This document shows, one piece after another, positions 43,675-50,682 of a stretch of 51,030 nucleotides of DNA. Source of the DNA: Bacteroidota bacterium. GTDB taxonomy: Bacteria; Bacteroidota; Ignavibacteria; Kryptoniales; JAKASW01. Under the pieces are notes generated by a model. It was not told the origin of the DNA. It saw nothing but the letters and a program-made list of their open reading frames with translations, and did not search any database. A program made the translations under genes and the position numbers. The stretch covers positions 1-51,030 of the forward strand of contig JAJYIT010000031.1 in assembly GCA_021789975.1 (NCBI GenBank), given 5' to 3'. The number at the start of each line of letters is the position of its first letter. Position 1 is the first letter of the stretch.

Positions 43675-44370
43675 TTACGCAAGCCGGTTCTTGTTCCCGT
43701 AGAAAATGTCTTCCGCGATTACTGCAAAATCTTCCTTGATGGTCGAATAGTCGAAGCCTTCGATCCAGTTGATCTCGTCCAATTTCTCAAATGGAAAAGT
43801 CTTAATGAAATCTGAGACATCGGGCGGATCAACTGAACCTTCTTTGTATTTTGCTTCAGCCAAGATTTCAGTCCAGTCAAATTTGTGACGTCGTGAGAGT
43901 GCCCAGACATCGACATAGTCTTTTGCCGCAAATCTGAAGAAAGCCGATATTTTGTTTGAGAGAATGTTCCTCCAATTGTCGATAAGGCCTAAGTTTTCGT
44001 CCTGTACCAGTTCTCCGAAATGGTAAGGTACATCGTTGACGATATCGATCTTAAGCTCCGCTTCATCTCCCAGGAGATAGAGTTGTGCGAAATGTTCCCG
44101 TCTCAACTCTCTGTCTAGATCCAGCTTGAACGGAAGTTGGCTTTCTTCGGCAGTCAAGTAGTTGAAATAGGTATCTACATATGAAGTGAAATTCTGATCG
44201 TTGTTAACAAACAGATCGAGATCATTGGAGTATCTATGATGCAGGTAATGCCGGCTAAGGGTTGTACCGCCTGTAAGATAGAGCGGTAGCTTTAAGTCGC
44301 TTCTGATTTTCAGTGCTCCATCCTGAATTGGGTACAGTCTCTCCGTGTAAAATTGCGCGGATGAGTTCAT
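43675..44370 (-). CDS. AbiEii/AbiGii-type nucleotidyltransferase toxin
   Basis: This 231-residue protein has the AbiEii motif LYLTGGTTLSRHYLHHRYSNDLDLFV, containing the nucleotidyltransferase GGT and the D-x-D metal pair near residues 50-53. ELKIDIVNDVPYHFG (third acidic residue) and KISAFFRFAAKDYVDVWAL follow. AbiEii toxins transfer nucleotides and function in type IV-like toxin-antitoxin or phage-abortive systems. The first 38 codons overlap the partner gene by 116 bases in another frame. The pair sits between a histidine kinase and its likely regulator. Confidence 0.82.
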   Translation of the reverse strand: MNSSAQFYTERLYPIQDGALKIRSDLKLPLYLTGGTTLSRHYLHHRYSNDLDLFVNNDQNFTSYVDTYFNYLTAEESQLPFKLDLDRELRREHFAQLYLLGDEAELKIDIVNDVPYHFGELVQDENLGLIDNWRNILSNKISAFFRFAAKDYVDVWALSRRHKFDWTEILAEAKYKEGSVDPPDVSDFIKTFPFEKLDEINWIEGFDYSTIKEDFAVIAEDIFYGNKNRLA

Positions 44371-44632
44371 ATCTTTCTCTCATGTCCTTTGGCCAAAGTC
44401 GCTTGATGACATCGGATGTCAGATTTTCTCGCAGGTAATCGGGGCCAAATACATCGAGCATTTGGTACCATGATAGCGTGCTGCAGAATCTTGCGAGCGC
44501 CCATTCCTTATTGAACCAGCCCATCGGCTCTTTCTTCCCAACCGCAATCAAGTAAAGATCGTAGGGATCGAGCTTATAGTCCCAGACGGTGCCGTGGAGA
44601 ACCTTGCGTATTTCGTTTTCTTCGGTAAGCAT
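44255..44632 (-). CDS. Putative partner/antitoxin of the AbiEii-type toxin
   Basis: From the ATG at 44632 the protein has 125 residues; the open frame extends nine codons further. It is helical and soluble: VLHGTVWDYKLDPYDLYLIA, MGWFNKEWALARFCSTLSWY, ENLTSDVIKRLWPKDMRERY. Proteins of this pattern regularly precede AbiEii-type genes in Bacteroidota and related phyla, as I recall, and lack the winged-helix DNA-binding domain of classical AbiEi. The antitoxin role is inferred from position and overlap. Confidence 0.6.
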   Translation of the reverse strand: MLTEENEIRKVLHGTVWDYKLDPYDLYLIAVGKKEPMGWFNKEWALARFCSTLSWYQMLDVFGPDYLRENLTSDVIKRLWPKDMRERYELIRAILHGETVPNSGWSTENQKRLKATALSYRRYNP

Positions 44633-44656
44633 AGAACAAGTTACCTTAGTTGCAGA

Positions 44657-44714
44657 CAATGCTCAATGAGCTTTGTGCAATGATCAACGATCAATGAATG
44701 TTGAACGTTGAAAA
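44657..44714. repeat. CAATGATCAATGA-type word repeat between toxin pair and regulator
   Basis: The tract consists of CAATGCTCAATGAG, CAATGATCAACGATCAATGA and TTGAACGTTGAAAATT. Within it TCAACGATCA is complementary to TGAACGTTGA in 9 of 10 positions, giving a hairpin directly after the regulator stop codon. The same words flank the four-helix-bundle gene on the other side of the regulator. Confidence 0.6.
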
Positions 44715-44717
44715 TTG

Positions 44718-46091
44718 CTATAATCCATACTTCTCCAGCCTCCTGTACAGTGACGCCCTGGTTATACCGAGTTCTTTTGCGGCTTGAGTCAGGTTGCCGT
44801 CGCATTTGCTTACGGCTTTTATGATGAGAAGCTTTTCTGCTTCATCTAGCTTATAACTGTTGAAGAGCGAGTTCGGCATTTCTGATCCATCAACGGAAAA
44901 AAGAAAATCGTCCGTCGTCAGCTTATCCGAATCCTTCAGGATTACGACTCTCTCGATTGAATGCTGGAGCTCGCGCACGTTGCCCGGCCAGTTGTAACCC
45001 GCCAGTTTTTTCGCAACGGCGGAGTCGATTTGCATGGTCGGCTTGCCGTACTTCCTGCAGTACATTTTGATGAAATGGTCTGAGAGCAGTGGAATATCCT
45101 CGGCCCGACTCCGTAGAGGCGGAAGATGGATCTCAACTGTGTTGATCCGATACAGAAGATCCTGCCTGAATCTTTTCTCCGATTTCAACTCCTCGACCGG
45201 GAGATTTGTGGCACAGATGAGACGGATATCCACCGGTTTGGGAATGCTTGAGCCGAGCCTTGTCACTTCTCTGTTCTGAAGTACTGTCAAAAGTTTCGCC
45301 TGAAGATTTTGTGAGAGATTTCCGATCTCGTCGAGGAACAGTGTGCCGCCCGAAGCTACCTCGAACCGGCCCGGCCTGTCTTCCTTCGCGTCGGTAAATG
45401 CGCCTCTCAAATAGCCGAAAAGCTCGCTCTCAAAAAGGGAATTGCTGAGTGCGCCCATGTCCACGCCGAGGAAAATCTGATCCTTCCTTCTCGATTGTCG
45501 GTGGATGGCTCGGGCGACAAGTTCCTTTCCGGTCCCGTTTTCTCCGACTATCAAAACGTTTGCATCGGTCGCTGCGACCTTTCGAATCATCTCGAAGACT
45601 TTCTGCATGCCATCGGAGACTCCGATCATCTCCTGGAACTGGTTGTCCATATCTGTGGAAAGCTGCTTCTGTTTCGAAGAAAGTTCTTCGATCTCCGTTT
45701 TAGAATTGCTCAGCTTCATGGCTGCAGAAACCGTTGCGAGAAGTTTTTCATTCTGCCACGGCTTGAGGACAAAATCGGTCGCGCCTTCTTTTATCGCCTT
45801 CACTGCCATTTCGATGTTGCCATAAGCGGTAAATAGAACCACAACTGCTGACGGGTCTATCTCTAAAATCCTCTTGAGCCAATTGAAGCCTTCTGCACCG
45901 GTCGTTACTCCGCCGGTAAAATTCATATCGAGGAGTATGACACCGTAATGCTCGTCTTTGAGTATTGCCGGGATTTTGCTCGGGTCTTTTTCGATGCGAA
46001 CGATGGGATAATATCTTTTCAGCAGAAGCCTCGCAGAGTAGAGAATATCTTCGTCGTCATCAATGATAAGGAGTTTGGCGGATTTATTCAT
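44718..46091 (-). CDS. Sigma-54-dependent response regulator (NtrC family)
   Basis: The 457-residue regulator has a receiver domain (1-125) with Asp10-Asp12 and phospho-acceptor Asp55. The AAA+ domain (about 150-380) has Walker A VGENGTGKELVARAIH, the sigma-54 contact loop, Walker B GGTLFLDEIGNL and RFRQDLLYRI. The C-terminal Fis-type helix-turn-helix is NLTQAAKELGITRASLYRRL. The contact loop reads GAFTDA instead of the usual GAFTGA, a change seen in Bacteroidota-type members. It probably activates the divergent exporter genes in response to the kinase at 42250. Confidence 0.92.
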   Translation of the reverse strand: MNKSAKLLIIDDDEDILYSARLLLKRYYPIVRIEKDPSKIPAILKDEHYGVILLDMNFTGGVTTGAEGFNWLKRILEIDPSAVVVLFTAYGNIEMAVKAIKEGATDFVLKPWQNEKLLATVSAAMKLSNSKTEIEELSSKQKQLSTDMDNQFQEMIGVSDGMQKVFEMIRKVAATDANVLIVGENGTGKELVARAIHRQSRRKDQIFLGVDMGALSNSLFESELFGYLRGAFTDAKEDRPGRFEVASGGTLFLDEIGNLSQNLQAKLLTVLQNREVTRLGSSIPKPVDIRLICATNLPVEELKSEKRFRQDLLYRINTVEIHLPPLRSRAEDIPLLSDHFIKMYCRKYGKPTMQIDSAVAKKLAGYNWPGNVRELQHSIERVVILKDSDKLTTDDFLFSVDGSEMPNSLFNSYKLDEAEKLLIIKAVSKCDGNLTQAAKELGITRASLYRRLEKYGL

Positions 46092-46108
46092 TGGTCAGTT
46101 ATCAATAA

Positions 46109-46536
46109 TCAATGACAAATGGTCATCGATCACTGTCTTTCCTGATTCTTGTGGCTTTCAAAATAGAGAAGAGTATCTTCCCGATTTCATCGGCGTCGGC
46201 GCAGAAGCTTTCTTTTCCTTTCTTCTTCATGAAGTCTCTCTGACCGAGAAGTCTGATCCAACACTTGGTTTCAAGGCACTCGTTATATGCGATGGATATC
46301 TTGTTCGAAAAATCAGCCCTGGAGATTGCGCCACCGGCCTCAGAGACGTTCGCGCCTATTGATGTACCACCTCTCAGCATTTGCTTGGAAAGCACGAACT
46401 CTCTCTTGGTATCCGCAGGATATTGGTATGCGCGTGCCATTCGGACCGCAGACTCAAATGACTTTTCTTCAATTACATTCTCCTTTTTTATCTTCGCTCT
46501 CTTTCTGCGTTGTCTTTCTTGACAATTGGTCATTGA
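46109..46536. repeat. Four-helix-bundle element next to the regulator, bounded by inverted repeats
   Basis: TCAATGACAAATGGTCA (46109-46125) is complementary to TGACAATTGGTCATTGA (46520-46536) in 15 of 17 positions. Both ends continue into CAATGATCAATG-like words. The gene inside uses the right repeat for its start and its stop overlaps the left repeat, so the element is little more than the gene plus its ends. Confidence 0.6.
46123..46533 (-). CDS. Four-helix-bundle (S23/IVP) family protein
   Basis: The intact S23-type protein shows NVIEEKSFESAVRMARAYQY, EFVLSKQMLRGGTSIGANVSEA (the family core), SKADFSNK-like AISRADFSNKISIAYNECLETKCWIRLL and a final helix. The family encodes proteins in 23S rRNA intervening sequences and includes the Avd accessory protein of diversity-generating retroelements; the biochemical role outside those is unknown. 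The ATG at 46533 gives 136 residues, but AAGGAG sits six bases before an ATT at codon 25, so the true start may be non-standard. Confidence 0.75.
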   Translation of the reverse strand: MTNCQERQRRKRAKIKKENVIEEKSFESAVRMARAYQYPADTKREFVLSKQMLRGGTSIGANVSEAGGAISRADFSNKISIAYNECLETKCWIRLLGQRDFMKKKGKESFCADADEIGKILFSILKATRIRKDSDR

Positions 46537-46855
46537 ACATTGATCATTGAGGCCGTCCGCCAGCGAACACCACCGTCCGATTCCGGACACCTGTAACTTC
46601 GCACCAAGAGTCTAAAGAGTCAAGTATGGCAAAAACCGGCGATTCCTGCAGGTATCATACTTGGTCAGGGCAGGCACATCAATTGTACTTCAAATACTGG
46701 CGAGCAGGACTCGTCGTCGAAGAAGGACAGGCGGTAATCAGGAAGGCGAGCGGGTTGGCGGCCTTCGGAAGTGGTTCAAAAGAATTTGGCAGCGTTGCCA
46801 TCAAAAATATCTGGACGATACTCTCGTAAGCAAATTAAGAAAGAAGAGGAACTCA
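46537..46855. other. Intergenic region upstream of the exporter genes
   Basis: This 319-base stretch should hold the promoter of the membrane fusion gene and perhaps sites for the sigma-54 regulator. A palindrome TGGCAGCGTTGCCA lies near 46788-46801, but its GG and GC spacing is too short for a -24/-12 promoter. The open frames here look non-coding. Confidence 0.4.
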
Positions 46856-48106
46856 TTGGACAGAAAAATCGAAAAGAAACCATTCTACATGCGCCTCAGG
46901 TTTTGGTTGTACTCTGCGGGTGGCGCGGCATTCTTAATACTGATTATTCTGATTGTTTCCGATTCTGGTTCGAAGCTCAATGTCGATGTCGACAAGATCA
47001 CAGTATCGACCGTCTCGGAAGGCGAATTCCAGGAGTTCATCCCCATAACCGGGACGGTAATGCCGAAGACTTCGTACTATCTCGACGCGATCCAGGGTGG
47101 AATAGTTGAAGCGAAGTATGTCGAGGAAGGTGCGATAGTCAAAAAGGGCGAGCAGCTTTTGAAGCTCTCCAATACAAATGTTCAATTGAACGCTCTTCAA
47201 CAAGAAACTTTCGCGTACCAGCAAATAAACGATGCGAGAAACACCCGTCTTCAGATTCAGCAGAACAATATCCAGCTTCAAAACGCTTTGGTTTCTGCGA
47301 TCTACCAATTGACAAACTACAGAGAAATATTTGAGCGCGAGAAAAAGATATACGAGAAGAAGCTTGACTCTCAGCAGAACTTCGAGCAAGCGTACAACAA
47401 TTATCACCAGGCGCTTGAACAGGAGGATCTGGCAAGGAGGAACTTCTCCCAGGACTCGCTGTTGGGTGTCTCTCAGCTATCACAAATCGGCTCATCGATT
47501 ACCAGGATGGAGCAGAATTTGAGATTAATTCGGGAGACGATAGATAATCTAACGCTCAAGGCACCGATAAGCGGCCAGCTTACATCCCTGAATGCCGAAA
47601 TAGGTCAGTCGAAAAATCCAGGAGATCAGCTCGGGGTGATCGACGCGCTTGACGGTTTCAAAGTTAGGGCCGATATCGATGAGTTCTACATCGCACGTGT
47701 TGTGAGGGGACTGCATGCTACGGTTACGATAAATGATAGCGACTACAATCTTATCGTGACAAAAGTGTTCCCCGAAGTGACGAGCGGCAAGTTTCAGGTT
47801 GACATGAATTTCTCAGGACGTGTTCCTGATGGAATAAGAAGGGGGCAGACGCTTCAGATTAGGCTGCAACTGAGCGAGCGTACCAAGGCTCTGCTTCTGC
47901 CGCGCGGCGGTTTTTATCAGAAGACCGGCGGCCAATGGGTGTTTCTCCTCAGCAAATCCGGCGGAGAAGCTCTTAAGAGAGACATCAGCCTGGGCCGTCA
48001 GAACCCGGATTACTTCGAAGTCTTGAGTGGCCTCAAGCCGGGTGACAAAGTGGTGACTTCGTCGTATGATAATTTTGGAAACGTACAGGAACTGGTGATA
48101 AAGTAG
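46856..48106 (+). CDS. HlyD/MacA-type membrane fusion protein
   Basis: The TTG at 46856, five bases after GAGGA, matches the family start (LDRKIEKK) and gives 416 residues; the open frame extends 65 codons upstream with unrelated Arg-rich sequence. One membrane helix lies at about 17-38. Barrel-sandwich halves are GGIVEAKYVEEGAIVKKGEQLLKLSN and LTLKAPISGQLTSLNAEIGQ, separated by a long alpha-helical hairpin (about 115-225). The C-terminal adaptor domain ends GLKPGDKVVTSSY. It links an inner-membrane ABC transporter to an outer-membrane channel. The ABC ATPase gene follows after a four-helix-bundle insertion. Confidence 0.88.
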   Translation: MDRKIEKKPFYMRLRFWLYSAGGAAFLILIILIVSDSGSKLNVDVDKITVSTVSEGEFQEFIPITGTVMPKTSYYLDAIQGGIVEAKYVEEGAIVKKGEQLLKLSNTNVQLNALQQETFAYQQINDARNTRLQIQQNNIQLQNALVSAIYQLTNYREIFEREKKIYEKKLDSQQNFEQAYNNYHQALEQEDLARRNFSQDSLLGVSQLSQIGSSITRMEQNLRLIRETIDNLTLKAPISGQLTSLNAEIGQSKNPGDQLGVIDALDGFKVRADIDEFYIARVVRGLHATVTINDSDYNLIVTKVFPEVTSGKFQVDMNFSGRVPDGIRRGQTLQIRLQLSERTKALLLPRGGFYQKTGGQWVFLLSKSGGEALKRDISLGRQNPDYFEVLSGLKPGDKVVTSSYDNFGNVQELVIK

Positions 48107-48112
48107 CAATCA

Positions 48113-48571
48113 GCAATCAGCGTTCAGCAGTCAGCCAAAATCAGGAACTGACAGATGAATGCTGATAACTGGAAACTGAAATCTAAAGAAAGGAGGAAAA
48201 ATGAAAGATTTCACAAACTTAGAAGTGTGGAGCAAAGCTCATCAAACGGTACTGGCTGTCTATCAGAACTTGCAGGCGTTTCCGCGAGAAGAGATATTCG
48301 GTCTGACAAGTCAGGTGAGGCGTGCTGCCGTTTCGGTTTCATCAAATATTGCGGGGGGCTGCGGGAGGGGAAGCGATGCCGAGTTGGCCCCCTTTTCAGA
48401 AATTGCAATGGGTTCGTCAAACGAGCTGGAGTATCAGGTCTTGCTTGCCAAGGATCTGAATTACCTCAGTAACGAGAAATATGAGGATCTCTCGAGTAGA
48501 ATTGTCGAAGTTAAGAGAATGCCTGCATCTTTAATCAAAAAGCTAAATGCTGACCGCTGAAAGCTGATAGC
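48113..48571. repeat. Four-helix-bundle element between exporter genes, bounded by inverted repeats
   Basis: A 23-base left end (48113-48135, words CAATCAGC-GTTCAGCAGTCAGC) is complementary in 20 of 23 positions to the right end (48549-48571, GCTGACCGCTGAAAGCTGAT and three more bases). The right end overlaps the stop codon of the gene inside. The left end lies 7 bases after the fusion-protein stop and the right end 16 bases before the ABC ATPase start. Confidence 0.7.
48201..48560 (+). CDS. Four-helix-bundle (S23/IVP) family protein
   Basis: The 119-residue protein begins FTNLEVWSKAHQTVLAVYQN after a strong AAAGGAGG site. It continues EEIFGLTSQVRRAAVSVSSNIAGGCGRGSDAELAPF, containing the LTxQxRRAxxSVxxNIAEG signature with Ala-Gly-Gly replacing Ala-Glu-Gly, and ends with helices LEYQVLLAKDLNYL and VEVKRMPASLIKKL. 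It is full length and in the same direction as the exporter genes it separates. Avd-like nucleic-acid-binding by a pentameric basic barrel is possible by analogy only. Confidence 0.82.
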   Translation: MKDFTNLEVWSKAHQTVLAVYQNLQAFPREEIFGLTSQVRRAAVSVSSNIAGGCGRGSDAELAPFSEIAMGSSNELEYQVLLAKDLNYLSNEKYEDLSSRIVEVKRMPASLIKKLNADR

Positions 48572-48586
48572 TCAAAGGAGTGAACC

Positions 48587-49276
48587 ATGATCCGTACAGT
48601 CAACTTGAAAAAACTCTACACTACCGAAGAAGTCGAGACCACGGCTCTTGATGATGTGAACATCGATATCAACGAGAAGGAATTCGTCGCTATCATGGGG
48701 CCATCGGGATGCGGTAAGTCGACTCTTCTGAACCTTCTCGGAATGCTTGATAACCCGACTTCAGGCGAGTACCACTTCTTAAATGATGAAGTCTCCAAGT
48801 ATTCAGAGAGACAACGCGCAAATATTCGGAAGAAAAACATCGGTTTTGTCTTCCAGAGTTTCAACCTGATTGATGAACTTACGGTCTTCGAGAATGTCGA
48901 ATTGCCTCTCCTTTATCTCGGAGTCGCTGCAAATGAAAGAAAGAAGATGGTCGAGGAAGTTCTTGAGCGGATGCAGATAATGCACAGAAGAGACCATTTC
49001 CCGCAGCAGCTCTCCGGTGGCCAACAGCAGCGTGTCGCGGTCAGCAGAGCGGTTGTAGCAAAGCCTGCGTTAATTCTGGCTGACGAGCCGACAGGCAACC
49101 TGGATTCTGCAAACGGCGAAGAGGTGATGAACATACTTACCCAGCTGAATGAAGGTGGTACAACAATTGTCATGGTGACCCACTCACCGCACGATTCCGA
49201 GTTCGCCCACCGCGTCATACACCTGTTTGACGGGCGTGTGGTCACCGAAAACTATAAAGAAAAATTTCACGTGTGA
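48587..49276 (+). CDS. MacB/LolD-type ABC transporter ATPase
   Basis: The 229-residue ATPase has Walker A GPSGCGKSTLLN near residue 40, Q-loop FVFQSFNL near 90, signature LSGGQQQRVAVSRA near 142, Walker B LILADEPTGNLDS near 163 and H-loop VTHSPHD near 200. This is the set typical of FtsX-fold exporters. The permease gene that should follow is absent, because a second four-helix-bundle gene and insertion sequences begin right after it. With the fusion protein it would form a MacAB-like efflux system. Confidence 0.92.
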   Translation: MIRTVNLKKLYTTEEVETTALDDVNIDINEKEFVAIMGPSGCGKSTLLNLLGMLDNPTSGEYHFLNDEVSKYSERQRANIRKKNIGFVFQSFNLIDELTVFENVELPLLYLGVAANERKKMVEEVLERMQIMHRRDHFPQQLSGGQQQRVAVSRAVVAKPALILADEPTGNLDSANGEEVMNILTQLNEGGTTIVMVTHSPHDSEFAHRVIHLFDGRVVTENYKEKFHV

Positions 49277-49285
49277 GCGTAGAGC

Positions 49286-49332
49286 GCATGGCGCAAAGGG
49301 CATGGCGCGAAAGGATTGGTTCGCTTTGCGCC
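49286..49332. repeat. GCATGGCGC word-repeat flank of the last four-helix-bundle gene
   Basis: GCATGGCGCAAAGG (49286-49299) is followed directly by GCATGGCGCGAAAGG (49300-49314), and GGCGCAAAG (49290-49298) pairs with CTTTGCGCC (49324-49332). A CCTGACTACGGGCAGG motif after it resembles the tandem repeat at 37008. The matching right flank is not visible because an IS follows the gene. Confidence 0.55.
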
Positions 49333-49424
49333 TGACTACGGGCAGGAAGGCTTGTCCCCATGCGCTTTGCGGCTTCGCTGAAAAGAGTGGCCTTGGAGTT
49401 TAACAACAAATCTCGGGAGGGCAC

Positions 49425-49703
49425 ATGAAGTTTCGGTTTCAGGATTTGCAGATTTGGCAATTTGCGATTGAACTGACTGACCAGCTGTTAGATATCGCCG
49501 ACGTGCTCGAGGGAAGGAAACTCTTCAGGTTTGCTGAGCAACTGAGGGGGGCTGCCATGAGCATGAGCAACAATATAGCCGAAGGATCTGGTTCGACCAC
49601 GACAAGAGATTTCAAGAATTTCCTTGATATTGCGAGGAAATCTGCATTTGAAAATATGCTTTTCCGGTTTGCACATATTAGAGACATTGAATATGCAAAC
49701 TAA
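49425..49703 (+). pseudogene. Four-helix-bundle (S23/IVP) gene truncated by an IS1595-type element
   Basis: The frame starts after CGGGAGG and encodes FRFQDLQIWQFAIELTDQLL, then FRFAEQLRGAAMSMSNNIAEGSG and DFKNFLDIARKSAFEN. Homology then breaks off near codon 75, where relatives continue with a third and fourth helix. The remaining residues (MLFRFAHIRDIEYAN) and stop come from the adjoining insertion sequence. The predicted 92-residue product lacks the last helix and is probably non-functional. Confidence 0.7.
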
Positions 49704-50682
49704 TCCAATCATCTTGTCTTATATGGAGAACTTTCCGAAATCACTTTTCGAGTTCAATCGCATGTTTGGAACCGAGGAAGCATGTTGGAGCTATCTCAAA
49801 GAAATGAGGTGGCCGGACGGGGTTGTCGATTATAGAGACGGAAAGACAAAACCAATCGGATTTTGTTCTACTCGAAAGGTTTGGGAGTTTCCCGATCACT
49901 TTCAGCAAACGGTTACAGCCGGAACCGTTATGCACAAGACAAGAACCCCGCTTACGCATTGGTTTTATGCTGCGTATCTTATGGCAACTTTAAAGCCTGG
50001 AATCTCTGCCTTGCAACTTTCGCAACAGCTAGGAATGAGACTCGAAACAACTTATTTGCTTCTGATGAAGTTGCGTTCCGCTTTAGTGAATCCGTTCCGA
50101 ACAAAATTAAGAGGAACAATCGAGATTGATGAAACCTATGTAGGTGCAAAGGCTTCCGGTAAACGTGGACGTGGAGCCGGAAACAAGTCAATTGTGATTG
50201 CAGCAGTCGAGGTGATAGACCAATCCGATAAAAAGGTTGGCGGCCGGATCCGGATGAGAAAAATTCCTTCTATATCGGCTAACGATCTTCATAAATTCAT
50301 TACCGACAATGTAGAAAAGGGTTCCACAATAGCGACAGACGGTTATCGTGGATATGAAGGGATTGAGAAAACGGGATATTCACACAAGGTAATAACCGGC
50401 GAAGATTCGGAAGACGTTGCAAAGAAAATGCAGCTTATTCACATCGTTTTTGGGAATCTTACAGCGTTCCTCAATGGAACATACCACGGAGTTTCAAAAA
50501 AACATTTACAAGCCTATCTCAATGAATATGTATTCCGATTCAATAGACGCCGATTGGTATTTGAGGCATTCAACACACTTTTGGGGATCGGAATTAGCAA
50601 AGAGGGGCCAACTTATTATCAACTTTATCACACAGGTAAAACGGGTGGATGGATACATCCTAACCCAAGAAAGGATGAATAA
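49693..50682 (+). CDS. IS1595-family transposase lacking the zinc ribbon
   Basis: From the ATG at 49693 the DDE transposase has 329 residues. It contains TAGTVMHKTRTPLTHWFYAAYLMA, catalytic Asp in IEIDETYVGAK, catalytic Asp in IATDGYRGYE, and the C-terminal GTYHGVSKKHLQAYLNEYVFRFNRR, all typical of IS1595. The N-terminal WPDG motif is present, but the CxxC pairs that normally follow are replaced (VVDYRDGKTKPIGFCSTRKV), leaving one Cys. The 5' end abuts a broken four-helix-bundle gene, so the element inserted there. Clear terminal inverted repeats were not identified. Confidence 0.88.
   Translation: MQTNPIILSYMENFPKSLFEFNRMFGTEEACWSYLKEMRWPDGVVDYRDGKTKPIGFCSTRKVWEFPDHFQQTVTAGTVMHKTRTPLTHWFYAAYLMATLKPGISALQLSQQLGMRLETTYLLLMKLRSALVNPFRTKLRGTIEIDETYVGAKASGKRGRGAGNKSIVIAAVEVIDQSDKKVGGRIRMRKIPSISANDLHKFITDNVEKGSTIATDGYRGYEGIEKTGYSHKVITGEDSEDVAKKMQLIHIVFGNLTAFLNGTYHGVSKKHLQAYLNEYVFRFNRRRLVFEAFNTLLGIGISKEGPTYYQLYHTGKTGGWIHPNPRKDE

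Follow-up and report, generated by a model that had tools for sequence, protein, structure and literature searches.

The closest described system is the IVS of Coxiella, an S23-bearing insertion in 23S rRNA that has been called selfish, is excised by RNase III and has been suggested to be mobile (PMC4990558, in the part of the text accessible to us). A second report (PMC4679880, likewise in its accessible part) describes arrays of the heptamer TAACTGA and suggests that an unidentified mobile protein binds the repeats. A link between S23 genes and arrays is absent from the accessible parts of both papers, and no paper making it was found in the open-access literature, which mostly leaves out subscription journals and preprints; within that limit, an IVS-like element between protein genes appears to be undescribed as such. 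Here we analyzed a 51,030-nucleotide stretch of DNA from a Bacteroidota bacterium of the Ignavibacteria (the window; contig JAJYIT010000031.1), in which an element lies between the genes for an HlyD-type fusion protein and an ABC ATPase and not inside a 23S rRNA gene. It works like an IVS, yet it lacks a defining feature, a position inside 23S rRNA. We consider it likely that positions 48105-48577 are one copy of a small, selfish, IVS-like insertion element in which an S23 (IVP) gene is set between inverted arrays of seven-base words.

The initial annotation had described inverted 23-base ends, built from a repetitive word, at 48113-48571. The two arms, 48113-48135 (GCAATCAGCGTTCAGCAGTCAGC) and 48549-48571 (GCTGACCGCTGAAAGCTGATAGC), are indeed complementary at 20 of 23 positions; at 40 randomly drawn places of the window with the same geometry, the top 23-mer pairings reached 12-16. 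The repetition was also confirmed, but the ends are not simple terminal repeats; they are parts of period-7 arrays (NTCAGCN), with 4.4 copies on the left and 5.6 on the right by Tandem Repeats Finder. Nor does the element start 7 bases after the stop codon of the HlyD-type gene, as had been proposed, since the left array begins at or inside the TAG at 48104-48106. (The open reading frame of that gene is listed from 46661, with TTG at 46856 as the likely start.) As shown in Table 1, the layout is A-A'-gene-A', with an extra internal inverted copy ahead of the S23 gene that is complementary to the left array at 19 of 24 positions (48148-48171). The stop codon of the S23 gene falls within the right arm, and the right array stops just short of the ABC ribosome-binding site. 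Folding of the whole element as RNA, a check that the initial annotation had proposed, gave a better structure than shuffled sequences (z -2.2), and in it the ends pair with each other. An Rfam search of the window gave no match. The S23 gene is the sole gene between the arms, and Pfam revealed no transposase domain; the element encodes no known nuclease, integrase, transposase or reverse transcriptase.

Table 1. Features of the element and of neighbouring parts of the window
Feature	Coordinates	Strand	Basis or remark
CATTGA-type hairpin without S23 gene	44659-44720		junction adjoining the S23 element of CATTGA word (46123-46590)
Second S23 gene, CATTGA word	46123-46590	-	profile match; arrays 46519-46550 and about 46089-46130
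HlyD-type membrane-fusion protein host gene	46856-48106	+	PF13437; sequence
Left arm A, period-7 array AGC-N4 x5 (NTCAGCN units)	48105-48135	+	Tandem Repeats Finder; pairing
Internal inverted copy A', forms upstream hairpin	48148-48179	+	19/24 complementary; sequence
AGGAGG ribosome-binding site of S23 gene	48191-48196	+	sequence
S23 / 23S rRNA IVP / four-helix-bundle gene, 119 aa	48201-48560	+	PF05635, TIGR02436; alignment
Right arm A', period-7 array (GCTGANN units), overlaps S23 stop codon	48539-48577	+	Tandem Repeats Finder; pairing
Ribosome-binding site of ABC gene	48574-48586	+	within tract more alike between species than flanking genes
ABC transporter ATPase host gene	48587-49276	+	PF00005; 12 orthologues
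Neighbouring element, word GCGCANA: left hairpin	49278-49371	+	sequence; junction comparison
Third S23 gene, with the GCGCANA-word hairpin	49425-49703	+	profile match; truncated at ISXO2/IS1595-type transposase gene (49624-50682)

The product of the gene matches PF05635 (5.7e-35) and TIGR02436 (3.6e-34). It had been called intact, and its frame is open, but alignment revealed several changes at conserved residues (NIAEG to NIAGG, P to S, R to P and L to P). The picture of a fresh, well-preserved insertion did not hold, because the same element is present in two other species and this copy is altered at conserved residues; the window's own copy is probably decaying. S23 genes as such are common among its relatives. 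PF05635 was found in 12 of 13 same-genus genomes, with 2 to 14 matches each, and S23 or "four helix bundle" genes in 157 of 198 genomes sampled from the phylum, with up to 16 matches each. The PDB entries of two S23 homologues, 2gsc and 2rld, hold five chains each, and at 7.7, the median pI of S23 proteins does not suggest that they bind nucleic acids. Weak matches below the cut-off relate S23 to the Avd protein of diversity-generating retroelements. We also note that adjoining junctions frequently have a word in common, such as the CATTGA hairpin and the CATTGA-type S23 element of the window, and that the minus strand at 43675-44659 carries an AbiEii-type nucleotidyltransferase gene, preceded by a small gene that belongs to no known family.

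The initial annotation had proposed a comparison of the site in related genomes, where an old operon member would be expected to persist together with its flanks. Among 12 genomes, the fusion-protein/ABC junction held CAGC-type S23 elements in three and ACGG-type elements with a different S23 clade in another three, and the remaining genomes had two gene-less hairpins, three short junctions and one rearranged locus. The window's gene is present in 3 of the 12, and the orthologous junctions of the others hold something else or nothing. Turnover of this kind was also seen at the ABC/next gene, gene/kdsB and gene/truA junctions, four sites in all: kdsB directly adjoins its neighbour in several genomes and is separated from it by an S23 element in two, and at gene/truA two species whose right flanks are 97% identical have different S23 elements within the same stop-start interval. 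Different units have repeatedly come to occupy the same junctions. Upstream of truA at one locus (L254, G008 C28), there is in addition a long tandem array, AAAGGTGACGGTCACTTTAGCACC(T), with a period unrelated to that of the S23 arrays. Junctions identified by eye as 3-hydroxyacyl-CoA dehydrogenase/thiolase also hold S23 genes in distant lineages, a recurrent site seen in the window's genus (G004 C1:178320), Flavobacterium (L183) and Fodinibius (L165).

The window element also has a history of its own. Between genomes G000 and G003, the synonymous difference is 0.31 for the S23 gene compared to 0.85 for the ABC gene and 0.74 for the fusion gene (Fisher P 5e-18 on rounded counts), and the similar tract runs from the upstream stop codon to the next start codon. 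In the ABC tree G005 is the sister of G000, yet its S23 gene is more distant. Because the S23 gene diverges less than its flanks and that of G005 is more distant, the sequences indicate that the window copy was exchanged between species independently of its neighbours. Identity extends a few bases beyond each end, so recombination in the flanks and exchange by the element itself are indistinguishable at the window site. Taken together with empty sites in relatives, the junction turnover and this separate history bear out the proposal that the element was inserted between coupled genes and broke neither.

Under a non-mobile explanation, slippage and template switching from arm to arm would have grown the arrays locally as simple repeats, the S23 gene would be a long-standing part of the operon, and ordinary recombination of whole junctions would account for the differences between species. 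Some junctions are indeed common to genomes as blocks (94% over 3.3 kb between G006 and G009), gene/truA is one clear recombination-like case, array length shifts by whole units (by 14 bp between L318 and L325), and the arms have equal numbers of G-T and A-C mismatches, which points to a process at the DNA level. This explanation is largely refuted by clean empty sites in plasmids, where a tblastn search found S23 elements that are mainly cyanobacterial. Four plasmids match the flanks of the element in Trichormus variabilis plasmid C at 97-99% identity but have just a 13-base gap in its place, giving a net insertion of 428 bp. The junction sequences have the five bases GTAAT once in the empty site and on both sides of the Trichormus insert. 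A flanking direct repeat was clear only there; TTCTA is plausible at a second site and none was visible at others, and a universal target-site duplication is not supported. Plasmids of Nostoc, Picosynechococcus, Aulosira and Calothrix provided more filled/empty pairs, with less similar flanks. In the Aulosira pair, whose left flank is only 76% identical so that the junction is placed approximately, the upstream gene apparently has its end shifted beyond the element, and this displacement points to insertion and not loss. Two further observations weigh against a non-mobile origin, namely that unrelated S23 clades occur at one junction and that the word follows the S23 clade across phyla, and we regard such an origin as very unlikely. 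The clean empty sites indicate instead that the S23 unit is an insertion; from sequence comparison, S23 insertions appear to be about 430 bases long and to settle between operon genes in many phyla. Some S23 elements in cyanobacterial plasmids lie inside CRISPR-Cas operons (L313, L317 and L319; cas6/cas4 and cas10/cmr3).

We compared the arms of S23 loci within the genus and in a cross-phylum set of 80 loci from a scan of GTDB genomes, which covered Acidobacteriota, Chloroflexota, Bacteroidota, Planctomycetota, Nitrospirota, proteobacteria, CPR bacteria and archaea. The words of the genus vary by copy (TCAGC, GGAACAC, GCGCANA, CATTGA, ACAGAGT, GTAGTAA, TGGAATAA and others). For about 70 usable genus copies, the upstream arm scored a median of 29.5 against the reverse complement of its own downstream arm and 17 for cross pairs. 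In the cross-phylum set the corresponding medians were 32 and 17, and 60 of 77 loci exceeded the 95th percentile of cross pairs. An arm score of at least 26 was reached by 42 of 70 S23 genes but only 2 of 297 control genes in the genus (P 7e-34), and by 57 of 79 compared to 11 of 109 across phyla (P 5e-19). The match was replicated at 18 of 30 further loci of the phylum, against 5.5%, and at 42 of 45 loci in viral contigs. Clear matching arms are absent from about one-third of S23 genes.

In 423 kb of the window's own genome, we counted nine arrays at lag 7, two at lag 8, one each at lags 11 and 12, and none at lags 4-6, 9, 10 and 13; 8 of the 11 lag-7/8 arrays adjoin an S23 gene or relic. Lag-7 arrays were found at 41-49% of S23 flanks, at 0 of 297 own-genome control genes and at 14% of controls near S23 loci. 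Lags 4-6 and 9-12 were close to zero at S23 flanks, with lag 8 and the harmonic 14 as the exceptions. Array size has its mode at four to five units, including on the side unused for detection, a peak partly shaped by the detection threshold and undercounting. The word can be predicted from the similarity between S23 proteins: Mantel r is 0.25, against at most 0.09 in 999 permutations, and 0.14 against at most 0.10 for pairs outside the genus. For proteins more than 60% identical, mean arm similarity is 0.50 vs 0.18, and such proteins tend to have the same word even across phyla. Across many phyla, the S23 gene and its matching arms belong together as a single unit. Period-7 arrays also occur without S23: an S23 gene was nearby at 0 of 80 TAACTGA-array loci, which excludes these repeats as the same thing as the S23 arrays.

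The hairpin array could instead be the mobile or conserved entity, a REP-like unit that a Y1/RAYT transposase or a reverse transcriptase moves in trans, with S23 as a passenger. The same junctions do harbour hairpins that lack S23, Y1 transposases are frequent in the genus, reverse transcriptases are present in 7 of 13 genomes, and S23 has its kinship with Avd. Different words have no fixed tag in common, however, and a passenger would not be expected to have its clade tied to the word. Moreover, no Y1 match was obtained in genome G002, which has 11 S23 matches, nor any match to the reverse transcriptase family PF00078 in G010, which has 14, although these assemblies are incomplete. We therefore consider a passenger role for S23 unlikely, and the need for either enzyme in trans was rejected, as S23-rich genomes lack one or the other.

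S23 elements follow the direction of their surroundings. Both neighbours are co-oriented with S23 in 107 of 126 cases compared to 57% expected from background pairs; the left arm starts a median of 2 bases past the upstream stop codon and the right arm ends a median of 6 bases before the next start. The arms resembled intrinsic terminators or promoters no more often than by chance. With this co-orientation and no convincing promoter, the element is probably expressed from the host transcript. It might then serve as a regulatory module, in which S23, acting like TRAP, binds the mRNA of its own operon at the 5' array and the arms, as a site of RNA processing or attenuation, are kept because they are useful. 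The co-orientation agrees with this, as do the array immediately upstream of the S23 start, the coincidence of four to five units with five chains, the C-poor left arms (G>C in 78, C>G in 17) and the low dN/dS estimates between orthologues (0.04-0.25, several with saturated dS). Against it, the elements turn over fast and are absent at orthologous junctions, their host operons have no common theme, and the arms show no G-U tolerance. Arm mismatches comprised 207 G-T and 209 A-C, an equality that argues against RNA pairing as the selected feature and leaves RNA-level selection on the arms unsupported. We judge a regulatory role improbable and prefer the selfish insertion.

How such an insertion would move can be outlined conditionally. 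The S23 protein probably binds the tandem words and would thereby specify which ends are served; that it reads its own word is suggested by the five chains per solved entry and by arrays of mostly four to five units. Cutting and joining would be left to host enzymes, for want of any known nuclease, integrase or reverse transcriptase in the element itself. By settling just past a stop codon and pointing the way the operon is transcribed, the element would spare its host. More tentatively, the elements could form a mobile-element class of a new kind. In it, an S23 pentamer, ring-shaped and without enzymatic activity, would recognise its own tandem seven-base word at each end, with one word for every subunit, and would guide host enzymes that copy the element or move it into junctions between genes; word and protein would co-diverge, and the 23S rRNA IVS would be a special case. 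We offer this larger scheme as a possibility that is open to considerable doubt. If mobile elements with self-specific ends do carry the widespread S23 genes, a common "hypothetical" would gain a role. The old question of 23S rRNA IVS mobility would then become testable, and a source of change within operons, including the CRISPR-Cas operons of cyanobacterial plasmids, would be explained.

Compared with known systems, the S23 element is most like the 23S rRNA IVS of Leptospira and Coxiella, as described in the accessible part of PMC4990558: an S23 open reading frame lies between complementary ends, within a transcribed unit that is not destroyed, and the distribution is scattered. Unlike the IVS as described there, S23 elements lie between protein genes, in several copies per genome and with observed empty sites, and their ends are period-7/8 arrays of a lineage-specific word. 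REPINs with their RAYT proteins and GTAG/CGTC palindromic repeats (PMC3116915 and PMC3733652, in their accessible parts) are also short intergenic inverted units with a protein-coding partner and gene-less copies, but that partner is a Y1 transposase, whereas S23 is a four-helix bundle (PF05635), and their ends are fixed tagged palindromes, whereas those of S23 elements are tandem seven-base words. The TAACTGA arrays similarly consist of tandem seven-base words beside stop and start codons; as far as the available text of PMC4679880 goes, however, they are direct, in one orientation, and in viral contigs they are not beside S23. In contrast to insertion sequences, the S23 element has no transposase of its own between its terminal repeats by Pfam. 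S23 falls, by weak matches below the cut-off, in the same protein superfamily as the DGR protein Avd, but genome G010 combines 14 S23 matches with none to PF00078.
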